The position numbers and the translations under genes are program-made. A DNA stretch of 64,000 bases, taken from NCBI RefSeq assembly GCF_018500155.2, contig NZ_JAHBAK020000017.1, positions 1 through 64,000 of the forward strand, written 5' to 3'. The notes below the pieces were generated by a model that saw only the letters and a list, made by a program, of their open reading frames with translations, searched no databases and had not been told where the DNA came from. Shown here piece by piece: positions 19,484 to 23,250 of the stretch (the first letter of the stretch is position 1; each line of letters opens with the position of its first letter). The DNA comes from Polynucleobacter sp. Lineage in GTDB: Bacteria > Pseudomonadota > Gammaproteobacteria > Burkholderiales > Burkholderiaceae.

Positions 19484-20302
19484 TCAGCGGCTTTTTGAGC
19501 TGACGAGGGTATGCCCCTCCCCATTTTCAAGCATGCGATCGATGCCAGCCTGATCAAATTTCTCTACTAGCGCTTGGTCATAGGGGGTACCGACTGGCAA
19601 AGTGGCATCCCCCAATCTCACCTCTGTCGACAGGGTAATTGAGAGATTGAGTGTTTTTAGATGGGCCCATAGTTTTTGCAAGAGCTCCTCATAAGGCACT
19701 CCGAATAGCGGCGTGCTCACTTCATAACCCTGCCAGGTATCTACGCGCCATTGACGAATATCTTGCAAATGCAAATCACCAAAAACCAAACGTGCAATCG
19801 GCAAGCCTGTGCTGGAACGAATTTGACTTAAACCCACTTCGATCGCTTGCTTGTAATCCGAGTTTGGGTATAAAGGCACCAGGCACAATGGCACCTTAAA
19901 AAGCTCCGCTTGTTTTGCTATGTCCTTAATGTGGATATCCTGAATAGATACCCGATTGGTATAAGCACCAAAGCTCGTGAGCAAAATGACATTTCTTCCC
20001 TGCTCTAACAAATGCATTAAGGTCAGAAAACTATCCTTACCTCCAGACCAAAAAAGAACATCTAAAGCGTCTAGTTTTGGCAACCAATTTAGGACAACAG
20101 GCTTTTCCATGGGCAAATCCGACCCAGTGTTTCCTGGAACATTAAAACGCCCATAAGGGCAATGTCGACAGGAGTTGCCGCAACATCTTCCCTGTCTTAA
20201 TAGCGCCTCGCTAGTTAAGACCTGATACCCCGTGGCAGGATCTATATAGGTATCGCGCCCTTGTGTGCAGGCATTACGATGCAGGATTTCAATAGTGGAC
20301 AT
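19484..20302 (-). CDS. DUF71/COG2102 (Dph6-like) ATP pyrophosphatase with N-terminal Cys-rich DUF5522-like domain
   Basis: N-terminal [14 protein letters not shown]-terminal PP-loop [43 protein letters not shown]. Confidence 0.85.
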
Positions 20303-20320
20303 TAATCGTATTGAGAAATG

Positions 20321-20341
20321 AAAAAGCCACCCGTAGGTGGC
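20321..20341 (-). terminator. Rho-independent terminator after btuB
   Basis: Minus strand GCCACC-TACG-GGTGGC followed by TTTTTC. Confidence 0.9.
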
Positions 20342-20358
20342 AGTAGATTCAAACAGAA

Positions 20359-22284
20359 TTACTTCATCGCATAGCGGATGCCAACGAACACATTGGATCC
20401 CGGTGGGATGTAGCCGTAATTGAGTTGGTAATTTTTATTAAATATATTGTTCCAGCGTGCAAATAGACTCCAGTCCCTATCAAAGTCATAGCTGCCATAG
20501 ATATTAGCGATGCCATAACCATTCATCGTGCCGGTATTGCCATAGTCATTGCGCTGCGCCTGGAATGTGCCTTCTACACCAGCAAGCATGGCATTCTTTT
20601 TATATTCAACACTCACGTTACCAAATTGTTTGGCTCTTTTGGCAAGAACATAACCTGTTGATTGATCAACAGGATTTTGTTGATCAAATGAACCCTTCAA
20701 TGTGAAACTACCAATGCGGCTCACGCCACCCAAAGAGGCACCACTAATTTTGGCTGATGCCACATTGCTGGCACAGCCGGTAGAGTACCCAACTGGACAG
20801 CCCAAACTTGTGTATTGAATTAAGTTGGTAATGGTGTTGTTGTAGACAACCAAATGAATATCGTAAGGCAGCGTTTCATAGTGAATGCCTGCTTCTGTAT
20901 TTTGACTCTTCTCTGGCTTCAGGGTTGCCACACCATAATTGGGATAGTACAAATCATAAAAAGACGGCGCCTTAAATCCTGTTCCATAGTTCACATTCAC
21001 CCTTAACTCTTTGGTGAAAAAGTATCCATAGGATGCGCCACCGGTATTTTGCGATCCATAACCAGTGATGTTGTCATTACGCAAACTGAAATTCGCCAAG
21101 TTAGCGCCACGCTTTAATTGATAAGCCGCACCAACTGAATTGGTGTCTTGATCTAAATTGAGCGTATTCGCACCAGTTGCATACATGGACACGGTTCTTC
21201 TCTCGGCCAATATTTGCACCAAATCAGGACCGACATTAATGTCGTTTTGCCAGGTATAGATATTTTGCTTGGTATTTGTCAGAGGATTTCCAGCGGGATA
21301 CCATGCAGCAGGATTCTGACTAGGGTAGATGGCTTGTCCTGAATCATAGGATTGCGCGACCTGTAAATTGCTATTCCAAATATCCGTGATTTGATTTTTT
21401 GAATAGAGCGCCAAAGTCGTGACTTCATTAATCTGATTACCAAGTACTTTTCCTGGTCCATACACTGGATATTGATTATTGTTTCTGCTGGCATAAACCT
21501 GCGCCCCAACTGACTGACCTTTTGCCCACTCTTGACTAACTTGAGCCGCACCCCCAGTTTTAGTATTGCCAATCGTATTGGTGGTGTTGTAATTACTCTT
21601 ATAGGGATTATTGGAAGCAATCGTGTTATAGCCTGCGGAATGTTCTGCAGTTGCGCTAACAGAGTAACTAATACTTTGATCGCCCTGGGTTGAGCCAAAT
21701 AAACTCGCTTGAGAGATGCTGGTGCCATAAGTACCGAAGCCAGTAGAGGCAGTCACTTGGGTAGGTCCGACACCCTTCTTGGTAAATATATTAATCACAC
21801 CACCAATCGCATCTGAACCATACAAACTACTTTGTGGCCCAAAAATAATTTCTATATGGTCAATCAGTTGGACTGGTATCGCTGACCATGAAGCCCCGCC
21901 ACTTAATACGGAAGTGGTACGCACCCCATCAATCATCACCAAGGTTTGATTGGAATTAGATCCTCTTAAAAAAACGGTTTGAACACCGCCACCAGATGCC
22001 GAGACCTCAACCCCTCTTTGACGTTGCAATAATTGTGTAATCGTCGATTGACCAGCCTCAGCAATTTCTTCTGGGCCAATATAAACATAGTCTGCCAACA
22101 CATCGTTTGCCAGTGTTGGCGTGCGAGTCGCAGTCACAATGACGGGATCCATTTGCGACCCCTTGCCTGATACTGAAACAGATGAATTACTTTGAGCGTA
22201 TGTTGCTGTTTGTTGTAACCCAAATCCCAGGCCAACGGCTAACAGCGTTGGGATCATTTTTTTATTGAAAGATTGATGTTGCAT
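20359..22284 (-). CDS. btuB: TonB-dependent cobalamin receptor
   Basis: Signal peptide, TonB box region [13 protein letters not shown], plug domain ([38 protein letters not shown]); downstream of a cobalamin riboswitch. Confidence 0.93.
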
Positions 22285-22427
22285 TTGGTATACCTAAAGA
22301 ATGATTCCCTAGCCAAATTCCCTGTTAGCTAGAATCTTTGGAATACGCTCAATGAGTATGCAAATAAAACTTCACCAGATTGTGAAGCACTATCGACATG
22401 CAAAGACCCACGTTGCAGATTCCACCT

Positions 22428-22610
22428 ATCAAGGCCGGTATCCGGGCTGAAGAATCTAGGAGCCTGGCCTTCCCATGTCAAAGCGACACAGTGGCGATTC
22501 AAACTCTTTGCCCACACTATATGGGCATTCTCTTACCGTTGCGGGGACAGCGCACGTTTGGTTAGTGCTTCCCGTTTAACTCTGATAAAGGCTTATCAGA
22601 GCACCTTGAT
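22428..22610 (-). ncRNA. cobalamin (B12) riboswitch aptamer
   Basis: Minus strand contains GCTGTCCCCGCAACGGTAAGAG and B12 box CAGCCCGGATACCGGCC; perfect 7-bp P1 ATCAAGG/CCTTGAT at the boundaries. Confidence 0.94.
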
Positions 22611-22674
22611 GCCATGATTATAAGGCATCAGGTAGCTGCTACCCGGGCTTGTGCCCAGGGATCGCCAATTTAAA

Positions 22675-23250
22675 TTATTTATTTTTTTGAGAATGCACAG
22701 TTTTTTGATAAGCCGCGATCACTACTAGATGGGACACCAAACCAACGATCAAATACGCAAATGTAATCTCGAGTGCAAAGGGGAAATACTGAATCAATCT
22801 AGAACCAAATTCAGTAAATGATGCATCTCCGGGAACATTCATTACGTAATAGCTACCACTAGAAATCAATTCACATACAACGATTCCAAAAAACGCTGCC
22901 AAAACAAACTTTTTAAATGCTCCAAAGTTCAGAGCGTAGCGCTTAGCAAACCATCTTCCTGCAAACCACATAGAAAGATAAGCTGGTAACAAAAATACAT
23001 ACGCTGCAGTGAAGCACGATTGACCTATTCCCAATCGATTGACGACAAGATAATCAATCAAGAAGGCTTGTGCTAAAAAAAGGATCGCAACAGAAATGCC
23101 GGAAAAATAAAAACCCACAGCAAAAAAGATCGCCCAAGAAGCGTCTGGCAAATATGCCAAAGAAGCCATATGATGACCTCGGGTAAGCCACATCATGGCT
23201 GACATCGCCAATACAAGATACAAACTATGTTTTTTTGATAATGCAGTCAT
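22675..23250 (-). CDS. btuM: BtuM-like cobalamin transporter (solitary ECF S-component type)
   Basis: 191-aa multi-TM protein beside the riboswitch-btuB unit; single membrane Cys at residue 79 (GIGQSCFTAAYVFLLPAY). Confidence 0.72.
   Translation of the reverse strand: MTALSKKHSLYLVLAMSAMMWLTRGHHMASLAYLPDASWAIFFAVGFYFSGISVAILFLAQAFLIDYLVVNRLGIGQSCFTAAYVFLLPAYLSMWFAGRWFAKRYALNFGAFKKFVLAAFFGIVVCELISSGSYYVMNVPGDASFTEFGSRLIQYFPFALEITFAYLIVGLVSHLVVIAAYQKTVHSQKNK

Follow-up and report, generated by a model that had tools for sequence, protein, structure and literature searches.

A DUF5522–DUF71 fusion protein encoded behind btuB in a probable cobalamin acquisition locus of Polynucleobacter

Why should a gene for a PP-loop enzyme of the DUF71 family lie directly behind btuB, the gene for the TonB-dependent vitamin B12 receptor, in a Polynucleobacter genome? 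A B12 role for bacterial DUF71 proteins has been a prediction since 2012, and nothing later was found in the literature searched. The locus lies in a stretch of 64,000 nucleotides of contig NZ_JAHBAK020000017.1, referred to here as the window. An initial annotation had recognised in it a DUF71 gene, btuB, a cobalamin riboswitch and a small multi-TM protein, and all four are present where it placed them.

The features of the locus (Table 1) share the minus strand and are transcribed in the order btuM, cobalamin riboswitch, btuB, a terminator-like hairpin and the DUF71 gene, which proves to encode a fusion with a DUF5522 domain. Gaps of 51 nt, 131 nt and 56 nt separate btuM from the riboswitch, the riboswitch from btuB and btuB from the fusion gene, respectively. 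The riboswitch passes the RF00174 gathering score of 31.5 bits and is the only copy in the whole genome. Since it is placed between btuM and btuB, with btuM upstream, it does not obviously control btuM, which was dropped as a riboswitch-controlled gene on this gene order.

Table 1. Features of the B12 locus and its surroundings, in window coordinates.
Feature	Position	Strand	Details
btuM	22675–23250	−	191 aa; E 1e-24 to PDB 8c7p; Cys79 codon 23014–23016
Cobalamin riboswitch RF00174	22416–22623	−	86.6 bits, E 5.7e-20
btuB, TonB-dependent B12 receptor	20359–22284	−	641 aa; TIGR01779 299.9 bits; Plug and beta-barrel domains
Terminator-like hairpin	20326–20341	−	GCCACC-N4-GGTGGC and T-run, between btuB and fusion gene
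DUF5522–DUF71 fusion gene	19484–20302	−	272 aa; Pfam, orthologues (59–71% identical), AlphaFold2 model, Foldseek
DUF5522 domain	20147–20284	−	aa 7–52, PF17653 70.5 bits
PP-loop SGGKDS	20030–20047	−	aa 86–91, invariant in alignment A1
C-terminal motif ENGEGH	19511–19528	−	aa 259–264, DUF71-B12-like variant of ENGEF/YH
6S RNA RF00013	23996–24214	+	63.8 bits, between zapA and TauE-like gene

The receptor and the small membrane protein were identified by different routes. TIGR01779 (TonB-B12) is the best NCBIfam model for the former; the score lies under the equivalog cut-off of 599.7 bits, and the assignment as BtuB is supported despite this by the riboswitch and the neighbouring genes. The best solved relative of the small membrane protein is 8c7p, a 'Cobalamin ABC transporter', and its Cys79 aligns with Cys80 of the 8c7p chain (alignment A4); the cobalt ligand of Thiobacillus denitrificans BtuM bears that same number (PMC6072759). 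Homology and the cobalt-ligating cysteine together make it a BtuM, as had been suspected. It resembles the T. denitrificans protein also in being encoded near btuB, but its gene has no adjoining btuR, stands upstream of a riboswitch and has DUF71-type neighbours, whereas most BtuM hosts carry btuM alongside btuR (PMC6072759). Cys80 has been called invariably conserved and is required for complementation (PMC6072759). The window's BtuM has its equivalent; several Polynucleobacter BtuM homologues at riboswitch–btuB loci lack it (L044/L045, L088, L089, L092, L093, L101 and L102).

What the cell needs and what it lacks narrow the possible roles of the fusion. The genome is 1.67 Mb long and 99.98% complete. 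No FecCD permease of the BtuC type was found anywhere in it by a search that was positive in 13 of 14 control genomes, so that BtuM appears to be the only recognisable inner-membrane B12 route; the absence of BtuCDF, first remarked on for the neighbourhood, thus extends to the whole genome and fits the solitary BtuM-type route proposed from it. CobS was not found in this genome either and is absent from 181 of 186 Polynucleobacter genomes. Because MetH (split across two genes), a methylmalonyl-CoA mutase and the MeaB-type GTPase that belongs to it (all named by eye from sequence) and a PduO-type adenosyltransferase are encoded and CobS is missing, the organism, to judge from its gene content, requires cobalamin, imports it and is unable to rebuild it. 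A PF03186 match scores only 77.7 bits here, and a paralogue of about 75 bits occurs nearly throughout the genus; such matches were not accepted as CbiB, canonical scores (250 bits and over) being confined to four genomes of the genus. True CbiB copies occur in genomes that also have CobS, with one exception (G273).

Both halves of the fusion are recognisable. DUF5522 far exceeds its Pfam cut-off of 25 bits, and DUF71/Diphthami_syn_2 (PF01902) at aa 83–267 scores 29.4 bits against a cut-off of 23.2, a membership borne out by the SGGKDS motif and the DUF71 fold. The N-terminal Cys-rich domain already noticed in the enzyme is real: four cysteines, C40, C41, C45 and C48 (CC-x3-C-x2-C), are invariant in 10 orthologues and form the core of DUF5522. 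This is a named Pfam family, of which no mention was found in the literature searched. The match covers 46 aa at the N-terminus of the fusion, whereas DUF5522 is usually a stand-alone protein of 57–130 aa. An AlphaFold2 model built from a 25-row alignment has a pLDDT of 84.9, with the Cys-rich stretch at aa 38–61 (pLDDT <50) not resolved and the model unreliable there. Foldseek places the Dph6-type structures PH1257 and PF0828 at the top (TM-score by target up to 0.66), and TtuA, a PP-loop fold with an Fe-S centre, among weaker matches. Dph6 structures are also the best profile matches of the fusion in the PDB; phmmer with its sequence alone against the PDB gave no match.

Diphthamide synthesis was rejected for the fusion on motif and model score. 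In agreement with the early view that the enzyme is unlike Dph6, the EGGE/DxE188 motif is replaced, and TIGR03679 reaches 23 against a cut-off of 197; bacteria, moreover, have no diphthamide (PMC3541065). Comparison with the DUF71-B12 group of PF01902/COG2102, whose defining ENGEF/YH stands where Dph6 has EGGE/DxE (de Crecy-Lagard et al. 2012, PMC3541065), is less simple. The fusion shares with it SGGKDS, a His for Dph6 Glu188 and clustering with B12 transport or salvage genes, though eight genomes carry the fusion elsewhere. It differs in its DUF5522 domain, in a much shorter C-terminal tail after the motif, in its occurrence in genomes without CobS and in the motif itself, which is ENGE[GA]H throughout the orthologues (ENGEAH in part), the His being kept and the aromatic F/Y lost. 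A tree of 36 DUF71 domains unites the fusions in a single group with full support, whose branch measures 4.57 changes per column; this branch is so long that the position of the group is not trustworthy, and the domain is too divergent for function to be transferred to it by homology. A second, canonical DUF71 with ENGEFH is encoded in the same genome on contig 61, beside a TerC-like gene. The description of the gene as a DUF71-family PP-loop enzyme tied to B12 genes stands, but the long branch, the ENGEGH motif and the separate canonical copy show that it is not an ordinary DUF71-B12 protein.

How firmly is the fusion tied to B12 genes within the genus? Counts of genomes here are not counts of independent events, as the sampling is phylogenetically uneven. 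The full-length fusion is present in 14 of 186 Polynucleobacter genomes, the 13 others being 60–71% identical to that of the window; one further genome (G094) has a broken copy and about 18 more have a stand-alone DUF5522 only. Being absent from about 171 of the 186, the fusion is not essential for B12 use. At six intact loci it is the next gene after btuB, and a cobalamin riboswitch precedes the two. Five of these (G000, G206, G210, G166 and G308) have the order btuM, riboswitch, btuB, fusion; the sixth (G162) has riboswitch, btuB, fusion, btuF, btuC, btuD and no btuM. With one other Burkholderiales MAG (see below) this amounts to the conserved btuB neighbourhood on which the proposed link to B12 had been made to depend. 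BtuM is thus not a defining partner of the fusion, and the variable inner-membrane route next to it points to a part in B12 handling and not in any single transporter. In four of the six genomes a canonical ENGEFH DUF71 gene is divergent beside btuM.

The main evidence against an obligate B12 link comes from the eight related genomes in which no B12 gene lies near the fusion. No cobalamin riboswitch was found near it in the six such loci scanned, and the three of these genomes examined further have a normal riboswitch–btuB–btuFCD locus elsewhere. Stand-alone DUF5522 genes of the genus are likewise mostly outside B12 loci, with three within. DUF5522 or the fusion is present in 10 of the 19 genomes that have BtuM and in 23 of the remaining 167 (Fisher p 2.5e-4, phylogeny not corrected). 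In G094 (L056) btuM, btuB and the fusion are all broken and the riboswitch is intact; this co-decay was not used as evidence of a link, since a neighbouring tctC-like gene is broken too.

The chromosomal slot between crp-like/oxc/frc and zapA/TauE (about 15500–25000 in the window; also L083, L087, L100 and L147) appears as an exchangeable B12 slot. Its contents include btuB–btuFCD, another TonB receptor with or without btuFCD, btuM–btuB–fusion, a TonB receptor with DUF5522, and a CobS/CobT/CbiB cluster. A cobalamin riboswitch, a different receptor of the TonB type and a stand-alone DUF5522 occupy it in G111, G205 and G074.

The pairing of DUF5522 with DUF71 recurs in distant lineages, where fused, operonic and adjacent arrangements are seen. 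In the Burkholderiales MAG REEB463 (L105) a single strand carries riboswitch, btuB, fusion, a BtuF-like gene, BtuF, BtuC and BtuD, and the BtuF-like protein is without evident signal peptide. In Flavobacterium terrigena (L121) DUF5522, cobU, DUF71 and bluB–cobT are four consecutive genes, adjoined on the opposite strand by btuD–btuC–btuF. A sister genus of the same family (L007, L009 and L156) has DUF71 genes on both sides of DUF5522, away from B12 genes; in a Saprospiraceae MAG (L126) a BtuF-like gene immediately follows DUF5522, which is found also without DUF71. Among 24 further Pseudomonadota DUF71 loci, btuB–DUF71–murI occurs in eight, all of one genus, and btuB, DUF6580, DUF71, a BtuF-like gene and a PduO adenosyltransferase in one. 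The eight (L176, L177, L179, L181, L183, L184, L185 and L187) include two read fully, in which the motif is EDGEFH, not ENGEFH. BtuF-like Peripla_BP_2 proteins without evident signal peptide recur beside DUF5522 or DUF71 (L044:7945–8766, L105:10828–11637, L126:10132–10902 and L173:564–1487) and are possibly cytosolic corrinoid binders.

The expression of the fusion gene may be affected by the hairpin that separates it from btuB. One hairpin of this kind is seen in the window against 0.09 expected by chance, and it is kept in five genomes (at the same place in L043, L044, L046 and L047), loop and flanks varying. It could stop most transcripts past btuB, with a low read-through to the fusion gene, or it could mark a processing site. 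It may also insulate the fusion gene from the riboswitch, which counts against a role in B12 handling. Riboswitch control of the fusion gene is likely; in L105 the strand that carries btuB and the fusion continues straight into the BtuF-like gene.

PP-loop enzymes of the DUF71 fold use ATP to activate a carboxylate or a base, and Dph6 makes an amide. Taken together, we consider it reasonably probable that the locus serves B12 acquisition and that the fusion works in the cytosol as an ATP-dependent enzyme on the imported corrinoid. BtuB would take cobalamin in at the outer membrane and BtuM would carry it over the inner membrane; with cobalamin plentiful, the riboswitch would limit btuB and probably also the fusion gene, which transcripts would reach through a leaky terminator-like hairpin. 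The fusion would then act in the cytosol, after import, on the corrinoid or an attached group, ahead of the enzymes that use the cofactor, which are the PduO adenosyltransferase, MetH and methylmalonyl-CoA mutase. Its DUF71 half would spend ATP on activating the substrate, by the PP-loop chemistry that yields AMP + PPi, while the DUF5522 half, with its four invariant cysteines, may hold a metal or Fe-S centre or serve as a docking site for the corrinoid. We infer the B12 role, the order of action and the cytosolic location; relatives of the fusion elsewhere adjoin BtuF-like proteins, an adenosyltransferase or CobU/CobT. That the fusion has some B12 role is very probable; any single reaction that might be named for it is unlikely to be the right one. 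Two speculative candidates, re-amidation of corrinoid side chains that have been hydrolysed (the direction of the Dph6-type reaction) and an ATP-driven step that would retain imported cobalamin in the cell, fit better than hydrolysis of the CbiZ type. More generally, and tentatively, with the balance somewhat against it, DUF5522 and DUF71 may form an ATP-dependent corrinoid-processing pair, joined in one protein in Polynucleobacter and its relatives, that works on imported cobalamin without lower-ligand remodelling, for instance in side-chain amide repair.

Among the alternatives, the one that survives best is a function unrelated to B12, such as amidation or thiolation of a small molecule or RNA, with the gene being a neighbour of btuB, in some members of the genus, by circumstance. 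The eight fusions located elsewhere, the stand-alone DUF5522 genes outside B12 loci and the weaker Foldseek match to the Fe-S PP-loop fold of TtuA would all suit it; we nevertheless think it improbable, given B12 neighbours in several separate settings (among them the cobU/bluB–cobT run, the eight btuB–DUF71–murI loci and the single btuB–DUF71–adenosyltransferase locus) and the enrichment for BtuM, uncorrected for phylogeny as that is. Quite doubtful is a role specific to BtuM, in which that protein allows downhill diffusion only and DUF71 enzymes modify cobalamin so as to block its exit, a trapping of the kind proposed for BtuR (PMC6072759). The usual pairing of btuM with btuR, and DUF71-type genes in place of an adenosyltransferase at this locus, speak for it, but in G162 and L105 the fusion also accompanies BtuF–BtuC–BtuD, for which a trap would be superfluous, and second-type Polynucleobacter BtuM loci have no fusion beside btuM (L088, L089, L092 and L101). 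Least credible of all is the CbiZ-like salvage proposed in 2012 for DUF71-B12 (PMC3541065), in which pseudocobalamin or cobinamide is cleaved to cobyric acid and rebuilt with the cell's own lower ligand: DUF71-B12 is anticorrelated with CbiZ and clusters with BtuCDF and CbiB (PMC3541065), and the F. terrigena genes sit with cobU and bluB–cobT, but without CobS, needed to close a remodelled cobamide, there is no remodelling, the CbiB-family match here is only the 75-bit paralogue with no canonical score, and hydrolysis would destroy usable B12, so that the salvage of cobinamide, cobyric acid or pseudocobalamin first suggested for the enzyme is unsupported.

Returning to an enzyme of B12 handling, the DUF71-B12 group and BtuM were already known; what is new is a fusion of this kind at a B12 locus, together with the recurrent DUF5522–DUF71 pairing and the occurrence in genomes without CobS. 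The genus offers a clean test case in an organism that requires B12, lacks CobS, has a single B12 locus and encodes the enzyme just behind btuB. As the proposed CbiZ-like role misfits a cell lacking CobS, the reaction should be a different one. A first functional context for DUF5522 comes from the fusion and from the genes repeatedly found next to each other, and the recurrence of the pair, often in B12 clusters, argues for a B12-handling step new to science. If side-chain repair or a similar reaction is indeed what the pair carries out, it would represent a new step in B12 maintenance and the first role assigned to DUF5522.
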